A stretch of DNA of 64,000 bases from Leucothrix arctica. Lineage in GTDB: Bacteria; Pseudomonadota; Gammaproteobacteria; Thiotrichales; Thiotrichaceae. The notes below the pieces were generated by a model, which searched no databases, was not told where the DNA came from, and worked only from the letters and a program-made list of their open reading frames with translations. Shown in pieces: positions 14,490-22,653 of the stretch; the stretch's first letter is position 1, and every line of letters starts with the position of its first letter. Location: assembly GCF_003172895.1 (NCBI RefSeq), contig NZ_QGKL01000035.1, positions 62,001-126,000 on the forward strand, given 5' to 3'. Made by a program: the position numbers and the translations under genes.

Positions 14490-15734
14490 TTATCCTTTTA
14501 CACACACCACTTGTTTCAATGTATGCATGATTTCTACCAAGTCATCTTGTGCTTCCATGACCTTTTCAATCGGCTTATAAGCAGAAGGTGTCTCATCCAA
14601 CACACCAATATCCTTTCTGCATTCAACGCCTTCAACTGCTTTCAAATGTTCTTCCATAGACACCTCTTTCTTCGCTTGAGTACGTGACATCACGCGTCCT
14701 GCACCATGGCTACAGCTACAAAAACTCTCTTCGTTACCCAGTCCACGAACGATGAAAGATTTCGCTCCCATACTTCCTGGAATAATTCCCATTTCACCTT
14801 TTTTCGCACTCACCGCACCTTTACGAGTGACCCACACGTTTTCGTCATAATGCTTCTCAGGGCTGATGTAGTTATGGTGACAATTCACCGCCTCAACATC
14901 CGCTTTAAACGGCATTGGCATCACCGCGCTAATCGCCTCCAACGTACGCTGCATCATCACTTCACGGTTAATGCGTGCAAAATCCTGCGCCCATGCAACC
15001 GCTGCCGTGTACTGTGCAAACTTATCGCTACCTTGCGGGATATAAGCCAGCTCTTTATCTGGTAAATGGATAAACCAACGCTCCATATCTTTCTTCGCTT
15101 CTTGGATAAAGTGCGTTCCAATCGCGTTACCGACACCACGTGATCCGCTATGCAGCATCACCCAAACATCATCGTTTTCATCCAAGCAAACCTCGACAAA
15201 GTGGTTACCCGTCCCCAGTGTTCCTAGGTGATGGATGTTGTTGGTTTTCTTCAAAAATGGATGCTTTTCAACCAGACGAGCAAAGCCATCAGCAAGAGGA
15301 GCCCATGCCGCAGACACATCAGCGGGAATCTCACTCCATGCACCTTTATCTCGGCTTCCTCTTAATTTTTTAGAACGACCATGTGGTACGACTCTTTCAA
15401 TCGCGCTACGCATCGCCGCTAAGTTGTCAGGCAAATCTGTTGCTCGTAACGTGGTTTTAGCCGCCATCATTCCGCATCCTAAATCCACGCCCACCGCAGC
15501 AGGTATCACCGCACCAATAGTTGGAATGACACTTCCAATCGTCGCACCTCTACCGAGATGAACATCTGGCATTGCCGCCACCCATTTATGAATGAAAGGC
15601 ATCTGCGCCAGATTTAACAATTGCTCACGTGCGTTATCATTAAATGGCACACCGCGAGTCCATGACTTAACCGGTACTTTTGACGTTTCTGGAAACATCA
15701 CTTCATATTTTGTTGTTGGTTTTGTAGTTGTCAT
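14490..15734 (-). CDS. rtcB: RtcB, RNA-splicing/repair ligase
   Basis: GTP- and Mn-dependent ligase that joins 2',3'-cyclic-phosphate or 3'-phosphate RNA ends to 5'-OH ends, repairing tRNA and rRNA cut by ribotoxins. The 414 residues carry VDLGCGM (D84, C87), GTGNHFVEV (N177, H178), LHSGSRG (H195), CHHNY (about 286-289) and CSHGAGRVMSR, where H343 corresponds to the guanylated histidine. All metal and GTP residues appear intact. AAGGAG stands 6 nt before the ATG. First gene after a perfect sigma-54 promoter. Unlike the common rtcBA order, rtcA is in a separate unit here. Confidence 0.97.
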   Translation of the reverse strand: MTTTKPTTKYEVMFPETSKVPVKSWTRGVPFNDNAREQLLNLAQMPFIHKWVAAMPDVHLGRGATIGSVIPTIGAVIPAAVGVDLGCGMMAAKTTLRATDLPDNLAAMRSAIERVVPHGRSKKLRGSRDKGAWSEIPADVSAAWAPLADGFARLVEKHPFLKKTNNIHHLGTLGTGNHFVEVCLDENDDVWVMLHSGSRGVGNAIGTHFIQEAKKDMERWFIHLPDKELAYIPQGSDKFAQYTAAVAWAQDFARINREVMMQRTLEAISAVMPMPFKADVEAVNCHHNYISPEKHYDENVWVTRKGAVSAKKGEMGIIPGSMGAKSFIVRGLGNEESFCSCSHGAGRVMSRTQAKKEVSMEEHLKAVEGVECRKDIGVLDETPSAYKPIEKVMEAQDDLVEIMHTLKQVVCVKG

Positions 15735-15817
15735 TGTATTGCTCCTTTCATTCTTGCTTTCGTCTGCATCAGCTGTCTGGTGCGCTATTCAATCGTTGTG
15801 TATTTATGGAAATAACA

Positions 15818-15836
15818 TTGCAATGGGTGTGCCAAC
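15818..15836 (-). promoter_or_regulatory. Sigma-54 (-24/-12) promoter of rtcB unit
   Basis: The minus strand reads TTGGCACACCCATTGCAAT, matching the -24 GG and -12 GC consensus (TGGCAC-N5-TTGCA) exactly. It lies about 85 nt before the rtcB start codon. The RtcR gene nearby encodes the expected activator. The next 150 bp upstream are very AT-rich, suited to bending, but no obvious activator dyad is visible. Confidence 0.92.
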
Positions 15837-16019
15837 TTTTGAAAAAATATGGAGATTGATATTAAGCCATTGTTTTTAATAGTTTTATTTTATTTTTGAT
15901 TGTTTTTAAAAAATTGTAATAACTCTATGTATTGAAATAAATTATCTTTTTAGATAGTTTATTATATAAATAGTTATGCTGTTTGTGGTTGGAGAGGAGG
16001 GGTAAAGAATAATTTTTCA

Positions 16020-16181
16020 CAGTACGAAGGCTGTATTGCCGAGCAATATGAATCGATTGAAGACGCTAAATCAGGTATCTTTGAGTATATTGAAGTATTT
16101 TATAACCGAATAAGACGACACTCAGCCAATGGATATGTGAGTCCCGCTGAGTTTGAACGAATGACAGCAATAGCTGCATAA
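16020..16181 (+). pseudogene. IS3-family transposase OrfB, C-terminal remnant
   Basis: The frame ends with YESIEDAKSGIFEYIEVFYN then RIRRHSANGYVSPAEFE, the conserved end of the DDE transposase of IS3-group elements. The last catalytic region and all N-terminal parts are missing. The following GGAGTGTCTAC (about 16184-16194) resembles the terminal repeat of IS3-group elements, so this is the right end of a decayed insertion sequence. It lies between the rtcB promoter and the 106-aa orphan, and probably marks the event that separated rtcB from rtcA. Confidence 0.8.
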
Positions 16182-16226
16182 GTGGAGTGTCTACTTTTTA
16201 TGGGTAACACCAGCGTATTATAAATA

Positions 16227-16547
16227 ATGAAAGCACTATTTTATAAAGATGGAAAACACTTAAAAGTAGAATTCGATGGCGATTGGAATGCGCTCTCAAT
16301 GTTCATCGAAACAGACGGTGAGTGGAGTGAAATTAGAAAGCATATTGAACTTAATAAGAAAGACGGCTGTGCTGGGAATACATCCTTAATAACACATATT
16401 TCCGGTAGTAAGTACTGTGTATTCTGTACTCTCGGCTTAGGGTTAAGTTCAGTGGAAATAGATCAAAAACAATTGTTGAAAATATTCGATGCTTGGGATG
16501 AATTTAATAGAGACAGGAAAAAGAAAAGTTTTATTATTGAGGTTTAA
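16227..16547 (+). CDS. Hypothetical protein (orphan, 106 aa)
   Basis: 106 residues, soluble, mixed alpha/beta (MKALFYKDGKHLKVEFDGDWNAL...), with no signal peptide. The ribosome site is weak. I recognise no family; the size, acidic character and terminal helix resemble immunity proteins that are often left alone after rearrangement, but there is no toxin next to it. It lies immediately downstream of the IS3 remnant, which suggests arrival with or beside the element. It converges on rtcA with a 28-nt gap. Confidence 0.55.
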   Translation: MKALFYKDGKHLKVEFDGDWNALSMFIETDGEWSEIRKHIELNKKDGCAGNTSLITHISGSKYCVFCTLGLGLSSVEIDQKQLLKIFDAWDEFNRDRKKKSFIIEV

Positions 16548-16575
16548 TAGCGCAACGACAGTGGTTCTATTATCA

Positions 16576-17586
16576 CTAACACCGCACCTCAAAACAATCC
16601 TCCCCAATTTCAGTAAACGTAATCTCACAATCCAAAAACGACTGAATCACGTCAATATTAGTTAGCGTGTGCAGGCTTGGTTTTAAGGTAGTAAACCGTC
16701 CACCACTACCTAACGCCATCGGCAACAATAACTGGTCACATAAGTACTCACCAACAACCGCTGTTGAGTCTAAATAACGTCGTGCATCTTTGATGGCTAT
16801 ATCAGCAACTCGTTCGGCTGATAAGCCCCTGCGACCGGTCGAATCAATTACTTCTGCAGTCCCATCGGTATGTTTAAATTGCACTGACAATACATTGCCG
16901 GGGCAGGCTGCTATTACCTCATTAATGTGTAAATCACTGGCTGAGATAGCTAACTTTTTCTGTACTTGTGCAAGTTCTCTTTCAGCGACATGACTCTTAA
17001 CTTTTGCCTGAGTAACGATGGCAGAGTGTTGCATTTCACCACGTTCCATAAGCATGATGGGCGTGGTTTCATCCAAAGGCTTTATGGTTGCTGACCACTC
17101 TCCACCACCGACGGGAAAGAAGCCGTAAGCGTGTAGCTCGGTGCTGATATCAATATTCATTAAACGAAGTGCAGGTATAAAACTGCGTTCGATGAAGTCA
17201 AAGCTCGGTGCCATCATGTTGTGAGTACCACCACTTAAACGAAGCGTTGATTCGCGCTTAGCCAGCAATAGCGCAGGAAGCACTGTCTGAAAAACTAAGC
17301 AAGAGCTGCCCGCTGTGCTAATAGGGAATGAGTAGTCACCCGCCTGAATTTCACCGGGTTCAAACGTGAGCGTCTGAGAGCCAATCTCTGCGCCTGATAC
17401 CTTGGCATTGCAGATCATTTGACTGGCTTGTACACACATCAAGTGTTGATGGCCTAAGCCTGATTTCTTGCGGCCAGCACGGATGTTTTCAATACGAATG
17501 GGCGTTTGTGTACACATGGATAGTGCCAGTGAGCTACGCAAAATTTGCCCGCCGCCTTCGCCTTGTGAGCCATCTATTATTTTCAT
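16576..17586 (-). CDS. rtcA: RtcA, RNA 3'-terminal phosphate cyclase
   Basis: Converts RNA 3'-phosphate to 2',3'-cyclic phosphate with ATP, through an enzyme-AMP intermediate, preparing ends for RtcB-type repair. The 336 residues begin IDGSQGEGGGQILRSSLALS, the family N-terminus, and contain SGGTHNMMAPSFDF and FFPVGGGE. The C-terminal LHTLTN places the adenylated histidine at about H306. It has its own sigma-54 promoter about 65 nt upstream and is divergent from rtcR. It is separated from rtcB by an IS remnant and an orphan gene, an uncommon arrangement. Confidence 0.96.
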   Translation of the reverse strand: MKIIDGSQGEGGGQILRSSLALSMCTQTPIRIENIRAGRKKSGLGHQHLMCVQASQMICNAKVSGAEIGSQTLTFEPGEIQAGDYSFPISTAGSSCLVFQTVLPALLLAKRESTLRLSGGTHNMMAPSFDFIERSFIPALRLMNIDISTELHAYGFFPVGGGEWSATIKPLDETTPIMLMERGEMQHSAIVTQAKVKSHVAERELAQVQKKLAISASDLHINEVIAACPGNVLSVQFKHTDGTAEVIDSTGRRGLSAERVADIAIKDARRYLDSTAVVGEYLCDQLLLPMALGSGGRFTTLKPSLHTLTNIDVIQSFLDCEITFTEIGEDCFEVRC

Positions 17587-17649
17587 GAGGTGTCCTTTTT
17601 GTTCAAACGCTTGTTGGGTGCTGTTTTTGCTTGTTACGCCACCAATAGT

Positions 17650-17668
17650 ATTGCAATGCTTGTGCCAA
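17650..17668 (-). promoter_or_regulatory. Sigma-54 (-24/-12) promoter of rtcA
   Basis: The minus strand reads TTGGCACAAGCATTGCAAT, a full match to the sigma-54 consensus and nearly the same as the rtcB promoter. It lies in the rtcA-rtcR divergent gap, so the RtcR protein is encoded next to one of its presumed targets. Confidence 0.92.
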
Positions 17669-17804
17669 TTCTTATAAATAGTAGAGATGTTTATTTAGGT
17701 TGTTGTTTTTATTTGTTTAAAACTTATAGCTGCATTTTCGGTGGTGGAGCTTATGAAAAGTGCTTACTATTGCTTTGTATCTATTTAAATAGAGAATTAT
17801 ACGA

Positions 17805-19391
17805 ATGAGTAATGTAGTAGTTAGTCTTCTTGGTCAGCGACTTGATAATGTGGGCTTTGGTGCGAAACGTTGGTTTCGCTGGCGTCCAACGTTATCGTTG
17901 CTGATGCATCATGACTTTCAGGTCGATGAGTTGGTGCTTCTTTATCAGGAAGAGGAAGAGGCGCTACTGCAAAAGACGATCAAAGATGCTGAGTCAATTT
18001 GTCTAAATATCAAAGTCACTACGCATAAAGTGACCTATAGCAACCCGTGGGATTTGGAGCAGGTATACGGCCAGTTGCATAACTTTGCGGAGAGTTATGA
18101 CTTTAATCCTGAGCATAATGATTACTACTTTCATATCACAACGGGTACGCACATTGCTCAAATCTGCATTTACCTATTGGCTGAAGCGAACTACTTCCCC
18201 GGCAGGCTTATTCAAAGCTCGCCAAGTCCTGAAGGGCCGCACGGAAAATATCAGACGATCAACTTAGATCTGTCACGTTACGATCAAATTGCTAGTCGTT
18301 TTCACAAGGAAGCTCAAGAAAGTATCAGCCACCTTAAAAGTGGTATAGAAACTAAGAACGAGCGCTATAACGAACTGATTAGAGAAATAGAAAATGTCGC
18401 TGTGCGCTCGACTGCGCCGATCTTGATTACTGGGCCAACGGGGGTGGGTAAGTCTCAACTCGCGAAAAAGATCTACGAGCTAAAGAGTCACAAAAAGAAG
18501 CTTGAAGGAAAGTTGGTTGAAGTGAACTGTGCGACTTTGCGTGGTGATAACGCGATGTCTACCTTATTCGGGCATGTCAAAGGCGCGTATACAGGTGCGG
18601 TAAGTGAGCGTGCAGGCTTGTTGATGGAGGCGAATAATGGTCTGTTGTTTTTAGATGAAATCGGAGAGCTAGGGCAGGACGAACAAGCAATGTTGCTGCG
18701 TGCGGTTGAGGACAAAGTCTTCACGCCATTTGGTTCGGATAAAGAAGTGAGTAGTGACTTCCAACTGATAGCAGGGACGAATCGCAACTTGTACGAACGC
18801 GTCGAAGAGGGTGCGTTTCGAGAGGATTTGCTGGCGCGTATCAACCTGTGGAGCTACCAGTTGCCATCACTGCGTGATCGTTATGAAGACATTGAGCCGA
18901 ACATTGAGTTTGAGTTAAACCGTTACGCGCAAAATACCAATCAGAAGGTGAGTTTTAATAGCACGGCTAAGTCGAAATACTTGTCGTTTTCGCTTAGCTC
19001 TTATGCTGACTGGAAGGCTAACTTTCGTGATTTGAACTCTAGCATTACACGTATGGCGACACTGTCTAATGGCGGACGAATTAATGAAGCGAACGTGGAT
19101 AAAGAGATCGAGCGACTGCAGTATGATTGGAGTGGCGGAGGAGAGGTGCAAGTTAGCGCTAGCGATGTGTTGTTGGAAGAAACGTTGAGTGCTGAGGTGT
19201 ATGAGAGTATTGATGCGTTTGAAAAAGCACAGTTGGCTGAGGTGATTCGTGTGTGTAAAGAGAGTAAAAGCATGGCGGATGCTGGGCGGAAATTGTTTGA
19301 TAAGAGTCGGTTGCAGAAGGCGGCTAGTAATGACTCGCAGCGGTTGAAGGTTTATTTGAAGAAGTATGGTTTGGAGTTTAAATATCTGTGA
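17805..19391 (+). CDS. rtcR: RtcR, sigma-54-dependent activator of RNA repair
   Basis: 528-residue enhancer-binding protein. Residues 1-165 form the RtcR CARF-like sensor (VVVSLLGQRLDNVGFGAKRW; YYFHITTGTHIAQICIYLL). In Salmonella this domain has been reported to respond to damaged tRNA fragments. The AAA+ domain has Walker A TGPTGVGKS (209-217), the sigma-54 loop as GAYTGA (260-265, Tyr for the usual Phe, seen in other RtcR) and Walker B LLFLDE (280-285). The C-terminus (about 470-528) ends in a Fis-like helix-turn-helix. Divergent from rtcA. Confidence 0.95.
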   Translation: MSNVVVSLLGQRLDNVGFGAKRWFRWRPTLSLLMHHDFQVDELVLLYQEEEEALLQKTIKDAESICLNIKVTTHKVTYSNPWDLEQVYGQLHNFAESYDFNPEHNDYYFHITTGTHIAQICIYLLAEANYFPGRLIQSSPSPEGPHGKYQTINLDLSRYDQIASRFHKEAQESISHLKSGIETKNERYNELIREIENVAVRSTAPILITGPTGVGKSQLAKKIYELKSHKKKLEGKLVEVNCATLRGDNAMSTLFGHVKGAYTGAVSERAGLLMEANNGLLFLDEIGELGQDEQAMLLRAVEDKVFTPFGSDKEVSSDFQLIAGTNRNLYERVEEGAFREDLLARINLWSYQLPSLRDRYEDIEPNIEFELNRYAQNTNQKVSFNSTAKSKYLSFSLSSYADWKANFRDLNSSITRMATLSNGGRINEANVDKEIERLQYDWSGGGEVQVSASDVLLEETLSAEVYESIDAFEKAQLAEVIRVCKESKSMADAGRKLFDKSRLQKAASNDSQRLKVYLKKYGLEFKYL

Positions 19392-19466
19392 CAAGACGGG
19401 TAGCTTTATAGTCATTAAGGTTGGTATTAGGTTTTTTTGAAAAAAGAACGGTGGAGATAAGTGATA

Positions 19467-19883
19467 ATGAATAGAGAGACAGAAGAATTAAAGGTCTACC
19501 TAAATAAAGTTGCAATGAAATCCTTAAATGGTGAAATACCATGGACTCAACTTAACTCCTCTGTATTTCAATGGATTCAGGGAGTTACTGGTGAGTCATT
19601 TAAAGTCACTGTACAGAGAACGGTTTCTTCAAGTTCAAGTTTGTCGCGAACTTTGGAGAAAACTCGTATGACGAACAACTCATTTTTAAAAGAGGAGGAC
19701 ATGGGTTTAGGATCTATATATTTGTTCCAAGTTCAAGATCGACGTACCAAAACTATATCGCTTTCTTTATCTAGCCTAGAAAGACCTGAGTTCTTTGAGC
19801 TTTTGGCTAAGATTTATCATGGAGCGGAGAAGGGTTTGGATGTTAGGGCTACAAGTATTTTAAAAAGGCTGCTAGGTCAGTAA
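19467..19883 (+). CDS. Hypothetical protein downstream of rtcR
   Basis: 138 residues from the chosen ATG, with GGAG 10 nt before it; a GTG six bases earlier (19461) is an alternative. The protein is soluble with no signal peptide. It has a Ser-rich stretch (TVSSSSSLSRTLEK, about 53-66) and a helical C-terminus ending LLGQ. I recognise no family. It lies 75 nt after rtcR on the same strand and may be cotranscribed, but nothing ties it to RNA repair beyond position. A small-RNA gene converges on its 3' end. Confidence 0.6.
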   Translation: MNRETEELKVYLNKVAMKSLNGEIPWTQLNSSVFQWIQGVTGESFKVTVQRTVSSSSSLSRTLEKTRMTNNSFLKEEDMGLGSIYLFQVQDRRTKTISLSLSSLERPEFFELLAKIYHGAEKGLDVRATSILKRLLGQ

Positions 19884-19938: not shown

Positions 19939-20084
19939 CAAAAAAATACGCCCTTTGTCGGGGGAAACAAAGGGCGCTGGGGTTGAGATTGCCGATGATC
20001 TTATTTTTATTATTAGTAGATCGATCTTCTCAGGGGCTTGCTGGTAAATCTTATTGTTATGTTGTTATTTTTATTCTGTTGTTG
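19939..20084 (-). ncRNA. Predicted sigma-54-dependent small RNA, copy 1
   Basis: Minus-strand transcript bounded by a sigma-54 promoter (20093-20111; start expected near 20084) and an intrinsic terminator (19940-19977). No ORF with a ribosome site is present. The 5' third is A-rich, with exact AAYAAYAA motifs at 20069-20062, 20058-20051 and 20014-20007, the type bound by Hfq/Crc in CrcZ RNAs. It also has the palindrome AGATCGATCT and a terminator loop TTCCCCCG exposed for pairing with GGGGGA-like ribosome sites. A second copy with identical sequence lies 2420 bp away. The start and end are inferred from the signals. Confidence 0.8.
19940..19977 (-). terminator. Intrinsic terminator of small RNA copy 1
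   Basis: Stem of 10 bp (CGCCCTTTGT with ACAAAGGGCG, plus a closing G-U) has the 8-nt loop TTCCCCCG. TA and seven T's follow in minus-strand sense. There is no T-run in plus sense, so it is directional and belongs to the minus-strand RNA. Confidence 0.88.
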
Positions 20085-20092
20085 ATTTGTAT

Positions 20093-20111
20093 ATTGCAGA
20101 TGTCGTGCCAA
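20093..20111 (-). promoter_or_regulatory. Sigma-54 promoter of small RNA copy 1
   Basis: The minus strand reads TTGGCACGACATCTGCAAT: -24 TGGCAC and -12 TGCA with the standard spacing and one deviation (C for T before TGC). The invariant GG and GC dinucleotides are kept. The same element precedes copy 2. Confidence 0.85.
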
Positions 20112-20178
20112 CTTTTCATTTAATTACTAAGTTGTTAATTAATAATGACTTTATTGCTTTTAAGTGGCATGGCTGTTT

Positions 20179-20234
20179 GTGACACAAGGTTTGGGTTTGT
20201 CAGTAATAGACGTAAATAATTGCAGTAATGTCAC
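20179..20234 (-). promoter_or_regulatory. Putative activator-binding region upstream of small RNA copy 1
   Basis: Contains TGACA (20180-20184) and TGTCA (20198-20202) as an inverted pair, GACGTAAATA (20209-20218), then TGTCAC (20229-20234). The same series occurs upstream of copy 2 at the same distance (about 68 bp) from the promoter, while the sequence between is not conserved. This fits an NtrC-type activator site. Confidence 0.6.
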
Positions 20235-20301
20235 TTACTGTCTTTGAGGTCGTGATATCTATCGCCAGTCGAATGTCACGGCTAACTAAGTAAAATACTG
20301 T

Positions 20302-20332
20302 CTTGTCCTAAGGGTGCTTTCTCTAGGACAAG
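20302..20332 (+). other. Perfect 9-bp hairpin in the lepB leader
   Basis: CTTGTCCTA (20302-20310) and TAGGACAAG (20324-20332) pair around a 13-nt loop, just upstream of the preferred lepB start. No T-run follows. It may stabilise or regulate the lepB mRNA. Confidence 0.5.
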
Positions 20333-20361
20333 CGGGATGCCATTTATTCAGCAGGTATAAT

Positions 20362-21249
20362 ATGCTTGATGGTTATTTTCTTGTAACCATTGACTCTAGA
20401 GGAAGCATCTTGGACAAAGCTTGGAAACCAAAGGCTTGGATCGCAATTTTTCTAGGCGTCGTACTACAGTCTTTTACTTTTCTTTATTTGAATAGAGGGA
20501 AGTGGTTTTGTTTTTACTTTGTTGTCAGTGTGCTACTGAGCCTAATAGACTTACGATATCAGGCTTTTTATGCTGGGGCGCTGTCTCTCATCTGCCCAAT
20601 CCATGCCTACTTAATAGTTAGGAAAGGCGACTTCGTCGGTAAGCGTTTTTGGTATTCCAAATGGTGGTGTATTCCAATTATTTTTATTTCTATCGCCATG
20701 TTTTCATTTACCGTTCGCTCATTCTTTTATGAACCGTTTTCTATTCCGCAAGGTTCGATGAAGCCGACGTTGGAAGTCGGCAGTCATATCTGGGTCAGTA
20801 AGCTCGGATATCGTACTTACGGGACGTATGGAATCACTCTTCTAAAGGAAGATATCGCATCACAAGATCTGATGGAGCGTGGACAAGTATACGTTTTTCG
20901 TTTTCCACAAGACGAGAGCAAATCTTTTGTCAAAAGGTTGATAGCCGTACCAGGTGACAGTATTGAGGTAAAGGGGAGCGACGTTATTGTAAATGGCATT
21001 TCTTTGCCAACTAGCTTAGTGAGTGAAACAGAACAACTTAAATACTATAAACAGCAAGTCGATGGTAATACTTTCCGTATTCAGCATATGAAAGACAGAG
21101 CCATAGGCTTTGGGCATATGTCCTCGCGTATTGTTCCTAAAAACAGCTATTTCTTCTTGGGTGACAACCGAGATAATTCAAATGACAGTCGATTTTGGGG
21201 CTTTGTTCCGAGTGACAATATAGTGGGCAAGGTGGTTTATAGTTTCTAA
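20362..21249 (+). CDS. lepB: Signal peptidase I
   Basis: Membrane serine protease that removes signal peptides. The catalytic Ser is in IPQGSMKPTL, the catalytic Lys in KSFVKRLIAVPGDS, and the box E sequence GDNRDNSNDSRFWGFV is intact. Several N-terminal hydrophobic segments precede the catalytic domain, more than in typical E. coli LepB, with a Trp/Phe-rich linker. The start at 20362 has AGG 6 nt before it; an upstream in-frame GTG (20314) would lie across the leader hairpin and is less likely. It is not beside lepA/rnc as the housekeeping gene usually is, so it is probably an additional copy. Confidence 0.88.
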   Translation: MLDGYFLVTIDSRGSILDKAWKPKAWIAIFLGVVLQSFTFLYLNRGKWFCFYFVVSVLLSLIDLRYQAFYAGALSLICPIHAYLIVRKGDFVGKRFWYSKWWCIPIIFISIAMFSFTVRSFFYEPFSIPQGSMKPTLEVGSHIWVSKLGYRTYGTYGITLLKEDIASQDLMERGQVYVFRFPQDESKSFVKRLIAVPGDSIEVKGSDVIVNGISLPTSLVSETEQLKYYKQQVDGNTFRIQHMKDRAIGFGHMSSRIVPKNSYFFLGDNRDNSNDSRFWGFVPSDNIVGKVVYSF

Positions 21250-21469
21250 GCGGGAAGTGGGCTTGATTCCTCTGGGTACTTTGTAATGGAAAGTAATGTT
21301 GATTGTGCCGAAGAACTAAGTCAGCACAAACATGTTTCAGCTAAAGAAGGCTATACTAAGCAAAGTTAAATACCCAAAAACCAAGCCGCTAAAGAAAACG
21401 TTATATCCTATGGGAAAACGGTGATCTTATGCGTCCTTAGAATGTTGATAAGTAAGCAGTTGACCCCAA

Positions 21470-22351
21470 ATGAATAGCAAAATAGTAAAAGCCACTGAGT
21501 CAGATGGTAAAGCCTTAGCAGAAATCCGCGCTGCCGCAATGGAGCCAAGCCTTCTCGCCGCTGGCCGCTTTGATGAAAATCGAGTACGTAGCCGATTTCT
21601 AGAGTCATTCGAGCCAGAAAATACCTACAAAATTTTGGTAAAAGGCGAACTGATGGGCTTCTATGCGCTTCTTAAAAAAGAAGATCATTACTACTTAGAT
21701 CACCTATACATAAAACCGCAGTCCCAAAGTGTAGGACTGGGAAGAGGTGTTATTTATAACCTCTTCGGACTTGCTAAATCAGAAGGTCTTCCGATTCGCC
21801 TAGGGGCATTGAAGGGAAGTCGTTCGAATGATTTCTACTTAAAAAATGGCTTTGTAAAAACGCATGAAGATGAGTTTGATATTTACTATGAGTACGCCAT
21901 TGATACTCAGCATGAAGTCGAGTTTGTCCCTTACTCAGAGCAGTACTTAAAGGCTTTGGTCAAACTGTGGCGTGATAGCTTTGAGGAAGCGGTCGGTATC
22001 GTTGACCCTAACCCTATCGATGAGCAGAGAAAGTATTTCATTGACGAAGTACTGCCAAAAAACCAAGTGTTGGTCGCATTAGATCGTTTGAAGGTCGTTG
22101 GTTTCATTGCTGCGACGAGTGATTCAATTGATGAGATTTACGTTCACACGGAATATCAAGGAAAAGGTATCGGGTCAAAGCTACTGACTTGGGCGCAAGA
22201 GCACTCTGAGGGGAGACTTGAGTTGTATACATTTGACCGTAACAAGAAGTCTCAACAGTTCTACGAACATAAAGGCTTCAAGGTGCTTGAAAGAAATAAA
22301 GCAGACGCTTGGATGTTGGATGATATTAAGTATGAGTGGGTTCGCACTTAA
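21470..22351 (+). CDS. Tandem GNAT family N-acetyltransferase
   Basis: 293 residues with two GNAT domains. Domain 1 (about 1-145) has YLDHLYIKPQSQSVGLGRGV and a terminal NDFYLKNGFV. Domain 2 (about 150-293) has the acetyl-CoA loop YVHTEYQGKGIGSKLL and SQQFYEHKGFKVLERN. Domain 1's pyrophosphate loop (VGLGRG) is close to the Q/RxxGxG/A consensus, so both may bind acetyl-CoA. The substrate is unknown. It is flanked by the two small-RNA genes together with lepB, and its stop lies 8 nt from the end of copy 2, which is transcribed toward it. Confidence 0.85.
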   Translation: MNSKIVKATESDGKALAEIRAAAMEPSLLAAGRFDENRVRSRFLESFEPENTYKILVKGELMGFYALLKKEDHYYLDHLYIKPQSQSVGLGRGVIYNLFGLAKSEGLPIRLGALKGSRSNDFYLKNGFVKTHEDEFDIYYEYAIDTQHEVEFVPYSEQYLKALVKLWRDSFEEAVGIVDPNPIDEQRKYFIDEVLPKNQVLVALDRLKVVGFIAATSDSIDEIYVHTEYQGKGIGSKLLTWAQEHSEGRLELYTFDRNKKSQQFYEHKGFKVLERNKADAWMLDDIKYEWVRT

Positions 22352-22358
22352 AGACAGG

Positions 22359-22504
22359 CAAAAAAATACGCCCTTTGTCGGGGGAAACAAAGGGCGCTGG
22401 GGTTGAGATTGCCGATGATCTTATTTTTATTATTAGTAGATCGATCTTCTCAGGGGCTTGCTGGTAAATCTTATTGTTATGTTGTTATTTTTATTCTGTT
22501 GTTG
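22359..22504 (-). ncRNA. Predicted sigma-54-dependent small RNA, copy 2
   Basis: The transcript region is identical in every base to copy 1: the direct repeat is 150 of 150 bases, 22359-22508 against 19939-20088. Promoter, expected start near 22504, three AAYAAYAA motifs and terminator are all preserved. Differences appear only around the promoter spacer (22509, 22521, 22523) and increase upstream. Perfect conservation of the RNA beside diverged flanks points to selection or recent gene conversion. Confidence 0.8.
22360..22397 (-). terminator. Intrinsic terminator of small RNA copy 2
   Basis: Same stem, TTCCCCCG loop and T-run as in copy 1. It lies directly after the stop of the convergent acetyltransferase gene. 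Confidence 0.88.
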
Positions 22505-22512
22505 ATTTATAT

Positions 22513-22531
22513 ATTGCAGAAGCCGTGCCAA
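22513..22531 (-). promoter_or_regulatory. Sigma-54 promoter of small RNA copy 2
   Basis: The minus strand reads TTGGCACGGCTTCTGCAAT. The -24 and -12 elements match copy 1, with two changes confined to the spacer. Confidence 0.85.
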
Positions 22532-22598: not shown

Positions 22599-22653
22599 TT
22601 GACACAAGTCTTAAGTTGTCAGCTATCGACGTAAATAGCTGCCGAAGTGTCAC
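22599..22653 (-). promoter_or_regulatory. Putative activator-binding region upstream of small RNA copy 2
   Basis: TGACA (22600-22604), TGTCA (22617-22621), GACGTAAATA (22628-22637) and TGTCAC (22648-22653) repeat the order seen upstream of copy 1. The TGACA half-site is again about 68 bp beyond the promoter. The 55 bp between promoter and box are unrelated in the two copies. Confidence 0.6.

Follow-up and report, generated by a model that had tools for sequence, protein, structure and literature searches.

A stretch of 64,000 nucleotides from the gammaproteobacterium Leucothrix arctica (contig NZ_QGKL01000035.1, positions 62,001 to 126,000; hereafter the window) carries two identical genes for a small RNA on its minus strand. 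We consider it somewhat probable that these copies are two of the six genomic units of a family of trans-acting small RNAs in the Leucothrix-Thiothrix group that is activated by PilR and sigma-54, binds Hfq and pairs with mRNAs. Sibling small RNAs behind sigma-54 promoters are of a known kind; here the family and its wiring are new. The proposal rests on the anatomy of the two genes, on a fold supported by covariation across the order, and on sites upstream of the promoters that also precede the pilin gene pilA.

Two copies of one RNA gene and the spread of the family

The identical block of the two copies extends exactly over 19939-20088 and 22359-22508 (150 of 150 bp), as an initial annotation of this DNA had reported. 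Both copies have all parts of an RNA gene, read from the minus strand: a sigma-54 promoter, a predicted RNA of about 145 nt and a terminator. In copy A the predicted small RNA covers 19940..20084 with its 5' end near 20084, the promoter TTGGCACGACATCTGCAA (-24/-12) lies at 20094..20111, and the intrinsic terminator at 19940..19977 consists of a hairpin (19977-19948) and a T-run (19946-19940). Copy B has the same RNA sequence at 22360..22504, starting near 22504, the promoter TTGGCACGGCTTCTGCAA at 22514..22531 and, by identity with copy A, a terminator at 22360..22397 (hairpin 22397-22368, T-run 22366-22360). The start points of both copies are placed by the position of the promoter. Further upstream on the same strand, copy A has four TGACA/TGTCA sites (at 20180, 20198, 20229 and 20274, within 20180..20278), which are predicted PilR sites, and copy B has such sites at 22600, 22617 and 22648 (within 22600..22652). 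The RNA bodies are 99% identical (as extracted, with a few bases past the 150-bp block), whereas the 170 nt upstream of copies A and B are 57% identical and those of any two of 11 Leucothrix copies 44-61%; thus conservation extends to the RNA, its promoter and the sites upstream, and not to the remaining flank. In these respects the initial annotation, which had described a sigma-54 promoter, an intrinsic terminator and diverged flanks for each copy and an RNA of about 146 nt, agrees with the sequence of both copies. The only reading frame in the RNA has 10 codons, starts with TTG and lies inside the terminator, so that no meaningful open reading frame is present. The predicted fold of the RNA strand was matched by 1 of 200 dinucleotide shuffles (z -4.28).

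The L. arctica genome has six units: two are in the window, contigs 3 and 41 have one apiece, and contig 22 carries two in tandem. The earlier count of two copies therefore stands for the window and falls short for the genome. The search for further copies by blastn, which the annotation had proposed, matched 14 genomes, its own included, among 57 relatives, all in one taxonomic family. A covariance model of the RNA (R1) was run on 63 genomes of the order, a set that includes genomes from which R1 was built, and found units in 55 of them, with 43 of the 46 good-quality genomes and all eight genera represented; among these genera are Leucothrix (including L. pacifica), Thiothrix and one with metagenome-assembled genomes (MAGs) of the Cocleimonas type. 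Positive genomes have one to six units, often side by side. Within the window R1 scored the two copies at 108.2 bits each, and the next best places at 12.2 and 9.9 bits. A class-wide sample of 369 genomes gave three R1 matches, all within the taxonomic family of the window's genome, in a shallow scoring of 10 candidates per genome that may miss diverged relatives. With six units in the genome and homologues in most genomes of the order, the repeat of the window is more than chance. Typical units were also seen in two records titled Aquificaceae MAG (L037, L065); units at identical contig positions occur in a genome of this order (G073), and the titles are probably wrong.

The suggestion that the RNA may belong to an undescribed family holds. 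The covariance-model search of Rfam 15, likewise proposed earlier, gave no match over the curated thresholds in the window, and around the copies (E up to 10) just two weak matches, to STnc560 (22.4 bits against a threshold of 55, on the opposite strand) and to Pinc. A search of a plasmid collection gave no match, and nothing relevant on small RNAs of Leucothrix or Thiothrix was found in the open-licence papers searched. The result is an additional RNA family, missing from Rfam 15, whose fold is supported by covariation.

A fold backed by compensatory changes and a conserved core

The fold was assessed in an alignment of 52 units (A1) that was not fitted to structure; 7 of 59 units, short or incomplete, were left out before alignment, and 14 of 56 fetched stretches were set aside by eye as chance matches (no promoter or fold, mostly from other phyla). 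Common to the aligned RNAs is the core UUUAYCAGCAAGCCCC; they also have two helices, the outer one of the form GAG.../...CUC, with an A-rich loop (for example AAUAAUAAAAAUAA), and the terminator follows. The predicted lengths of modelled members range from 126 to 193 nt. In A1, 87.9% of the cells pair, compared with 70.3% after shuffling and at most 44.7% in slid controls, and 105 cells carry double changes, compared with 31.3 and at most 43. The inner helix is 95.8% paired and has compensatory changes at five of five pairs, on both sides. The outer helix is weaker in this count (77.4%) because of a one-column shift in the alignment; unit by unit it can form (GAGGCA/UGCUUC, GAGAUA/UAUCUC, GAGGCG/CGCCUC, UGAGAUU/GAUCUCA, etc.). 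For the same reason RNAalifold alone recovered the inner helix only, since MAFFT offsets the outer helix by one column in Thiothrix. A free helix search also chose other helices in some units, mainly in Leucothrix and of the L017-L020 type, and short variants (L027, L028, L049, L071, L058) have one simple hairpin in place of both helices. The compensatory changes support the family fold; with its own promoter and terminator, this fold and no open reading frame, the RNA has the make-up of a structured, trans-acting small RNA.

In copy A the core reads TTTACCAGCAAGCCCC (minimal form AGCAAGCCC; 20033..20048, minus strand), with a mean of 0.79 unpaired in the predicted ensemble. Across 37 RNAs, which remained from 42 promoter-bearing ones after script filters had removed five, the core has a mean of 0.72 unpaired. 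The pattern that retrieved many of the A1 units contains the core, whose conservation there is therefore partly built in. A better check is given by 30 loci fetched by the promoter pattern alone, 19 of which have AGCAAGCCC within 330 nt; the same 19 score as family, yet with a model that includes the core. The other 11 are six pilin genes and five other RNAs.

Upstream sites in common with pilA, and a candidate activator

Sigma-54 promoters of the TTGGCA type lie at most 190 nt upstream of 42 of the 59 units, and several promoterless units are later tandem members (e.g. L016, L049, L065) or stand behind a further diverged unit (L155). Two of the 42 upstream regions were too short to use. In the remaining 40 the most enriched 6-mers are GTGACA, CTGACA and CTGTCA, and GTGACA is present on either strand in 33 (4.5 expected). 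At least three TGACA/TGTCA sites occur in 38 of the 40 regions, compared with 4.6% of 2100 random windows, and 113 of 154 sites are located 81-140 nt ahead of the -24 element. The Thiothrix form of the site is TGTC-N7-GACA. Pilin matches were obtained in the window's genome and 8 of 11 others, and a pilA gene with a sigma-54 promoter and upstream sites of the kind seen in the RNA family occurs in the window's genome and in five Thiothrix genomes; under a looser check, pilA of L. pacifica also has the promoter and three sites. These sites are missing from a sigma-54-like promoter that lies next to a DctP-type gene of the window's genome.

A composite pattern (TGTC-N7-GACA, 66-96 bases, TTGGCAY-N6-TGC) was then searched in 34 chosen genomes, 16 of them Thiothrix, and gave 66 matches in 28 genomes; a reversed-pattern control gave none. 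Most of these (48 of 66, assigned by comparison with part of the R1 match list) lie at most 300 nt ahead of an RNA-family unit, and 12 are ahead of a gene whose product has the N-terminus of a type IV pilin (four were scanned and all four matched PF00114, Pilin). Three matches, all in Leucothrix, precede an A-rich, terminator-ended RNA upstream of ftsE, and the last three, from a single further genus, lie before a short RNA that also ends in a terminator. The window's genome has the sites at its units in looser spacing, and its link to PilR rests on these looser clusters, as the strict form is absent at all six units and at pilA. The pairing of a sigma-54 promoter with pilA-type upstream sites that marks a PilR-sigma-54 regulon is thus found for the family, in the window's genome by the loose sites only.

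The non-family matches have features of their own. The RNAs beside ftsE (L232, on contig 22 of genome G000 from 226828, L233 and L234) are A-rich, keep AAUAAUAAAAAUAA, are without AGCAAGCCC and have their own terminator; ftsE is named by TIGR02673 in L232 and by likeness in the other two. They contain 7-9 AANAANAA motifs each, and that of L233 gives a weak R1 match along its full extent (22.1 bits, E 0.0004), so that they may be remote relatives of the family. The short RNA of the one other genus (L236, L239, L240) is about 95 nt long by eye, with a strong terminator and a composite-type promoter, and the sequence GUCAGAACGGYG in L239 and L240 resembles the 5' leader of the Thiothrix RNAs. At four loci (L237, L238, L241, L113) two neighbouring, non-identical pilin-like genes stand behind one composite-type promoter.

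The PilS-PilR system, which regulates type IV pili, is widespread. Because the upstream sites also precede pilA, the activator of the RNA family is most likely PilR. In T. fructosivorans (L121) a regulator gene ends 131 nt before the pilA promoter, and its product matches one activator of the window's genome (L096) with 65% identity over 390 aa and five others (RtcR not among them) with at most 39%. In L118 the end of a regulator gene whose product has the same C-terminus is about 550 nt from the promoter, and L116 has a further open frame in between. No PilR model was among the NCBIfam matches shown for the activators of the window's genome, and L096 takes the name PilR from this synteny with pilA and the 65% identity. 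Besides pilA, the strict composite site marks RNA genes only in the 34 genomes; we tentatively propose that PilS-PilR in this order may chiefly control small RNAs, and that it could be a surface- or pilus-sensing counterpart of CbrAB-CrcZ that resets Hfq-dependent translation. The available text of the open-licence literature yielded no PilR-controlled trans-acting small RNA; a Synechocystis antisense RNA named PilR, as described there, is a different thing.

Proposed mode of action, known systems and rival explanations

Under the proposed mechanism, PilR and sigma-54 would activate transcription of the RNA family, and the RNA would be bound by Hfq, which the genome encodes, through A-rich (AAN)n stretches in the 5' leader and in the loop on the outer and inner helix, together with the U-tail of the terminator. 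It would then act on mRNAs post-transcriptionally, most simply by pairing via the core AGCAAGCCC(C), and multiple copies and tandem units would raise the dose. A C-rich stretch that is conserved, mostly unpaired and adjacent to Hfq sites has the typical look of a pairing seed. The motif AANAANAA occurs 4.6 times per RNA compared with 0.68 times in shuffled sequences (37 RNAs), about 7-fold, and the A-rich loop is predicted to be 0.92 unpaired. According to the accessible part of one study this is the motif used by Hfq, with the help of Crc, in pseudomonads (PMC5429807), and CrcZ, as far as the available text of another describes it, titrates Hfq with six A-rich stretches (PMC4063720). If the proposal is true, filamentous sulfur bacteria would couple the state of their pili directly to global control at the post-transcriptional level, and the family would be a further natural case, beside Qrr and CrcZ, of sibling small RNAs under one sigma-54 activator.

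The Qrr small RNAs of Vibrio are multiple siblings transcribed from sigma-54 promoters under LuxO. The RNA family resembles them in this organization, but has no Rfam Qrr match, and no protein of LuxO level is among the seven scanned activators of the window's genome (best 371 bits against a cut-off of 800). GlmY and GlmZ are also sigma-54 small RNAs, and the GlrR site TGTC-N10-GACA resembles TGTC-N7-GACA; the spacing differs, the RNA family has no Rfam match to them, and no GlrR-level protein was seen among the scanned activators (best 349 bits against a cut-off of 763). With CrcZ/CrcY/CrcX (RF01675, Pseudomonadaceae), as the available parts of two reports describe them, the family shares a sigma-54 promoter that works with an enhancer-binding protein of a two-component system (for the family, the predicted PilR), the presence of multiple copies in a genome and A-rich AANAANAA Hfq motifs in accessible loops (PMC5429807; PMC4063720). 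However, RF01675 has no match over its cut-off in the window's genome (best 17.7 and 15.7 bits against 95, at other places), CrcZ is given as 407 nt in the accessible text (PMC4063720) and the window's RNA is predicted at about 145 nt, and the CbrB subsites, in the available part of a further study, are TGTTAC (PMC6296734) rather than the TGACA/TGTCA sites of the pilA kind; the core AGCAAGCCC belongs to the Leucothrix-Thiothrix RNA. CbrAB is said in the same partial source to be exclusive to pseudomonads (PMC6296734), and no CbrA-CbrB pair was recognised by eye among the activators of the window's genome and their kinases. The initial annotation was right that the RNA is neither Qrr nor of CrcZ length. 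Its comparison with Qrr (LuxO) and CrcZ (CbrB) stands for the multiple sigma-54 siblings and fails for the activator, since the upstream sites are pilA-type. The closest likeness in promoter type and kind of upstream sites is to the PilR regulon, that is, to pilA itself.

Several results weigh against the proposed PilR-activated, mRNA-pairing family. The exact complement of the core, GGGGCTTGCT, was searched in three Leucothrix genomes and is present at 36 places, of which 14 are family units; the other 22 compare with 8 for the reversed pattern, and the 18 of these 22 that were examined have no site in common at the start of any one gene. The core is mostly paired (at most 0.40 unpaired) by prediction in 7 of the 37 RNAs, and further pair types number 17 in A1 compared with 18.5 after shuffling, which is no excess. 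Six genomes (G033, G013, G024, G008, G015, G020) have no composite match though R1 finds the RNA there, and in the window's genome the only strict composite site is that of the ftsE-side RNA. The pilin genes of G004 carry the sites without a recognised promoter, and in G013 no pilin start was found by motif. PilR sites, in the portion of the literature available, are described as NifA-like TGT-N11-AGA and GTCT elements, which is not exactly TGTC-N7-GACA. The first approximately 690 nt of 12 pilA transcripts contain 7-mers of the core complement in five cases, all at 506 nt or beyond. The exact core complement also falls into early codons of two genes that by eye look like those of periplasmic binding proteins (L185:1501, L175:1501), in one genome each and unsupported as targets.

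The serious rival is that the RNA is an Hfq decoy wired to PilR, titrating Hfq by its A-rich motifs as CrcZ does, with or without a Crc-like partner, and not pairing with mRNAs itself, in which case the core would bind another factor or shape the fold. The enrichment and accessibility of AANAANAA and the precedent of CrcZ speak for this, and the ftsE-side RNAs, which lack the core and keep AAUAAUAAAAAUAA and the motifs, favour a decoy component. A decoy, however, does not need so strongly conserved a core; no Crc-like partner was identified among six Exo_endo_phos proteins, of which two were scanned and both score as exodeoxyribonuclease III. A-rich stretches are also found in many Hfq-dependent base-pairing small RNAs, which counts against the decoy. 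On balance we hold a decoy to be rather unlikely and give the pairing model the edge. Activation by a different enhancer-binding protein that recognises the same site, e.g. the L099 regulator, NtrC, NtrX or RtcR, is improbable. In its favour, seven strong matches to sigma-54 activators occur in the genome, a site motif common to pilA and the RNA does not prove the identity of its binder, and rtcR adjoins copy A; against this stand the composite site, which found RNAs and pilin genes only in 34 genomes, the position of pilR before pilA in T. fructosivorans, and the DctP-type gene's promoter without sites. The exact duplication and the tandem units might be taken for untranscribed repeats or mobile copies, a reading to which we attach very little credence: both copies keep promoter, upstream sites and terminator despite diverged flanks, which is not the picture of random mobile copies that the initial annotation had named as refuting, and compensatory base changes and conservation across the order also speak against it. 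Hardly any weight, too, falls on a role in cis, as a leader or attenuator of the gene that follows, for which the related RNA ahead of ftsE in three Leucothrix genomes could be cited; both window copies end in terminators and face the 3' ends of the plus-strand genes beyond (19461-19883 and 21470-22351).

RtcR was also considered as activator by its proximity to copy A and set aside, because the upstream sites of the RNA match those of pilA. Its gene (17805..19391, plus strand; NF038308, 752 bits against a cut-off of 650) encodes the sigma-54 activator of RNA repair. Beside copy A it forms part of an RNA-repair cluster (14490-19391) comprising a gene similar to rtcB (it scores 421 bits with an RtcB-related model, under the cut-off of that model), rtcA, which scores over its cut-off, and the divergent rtcR.

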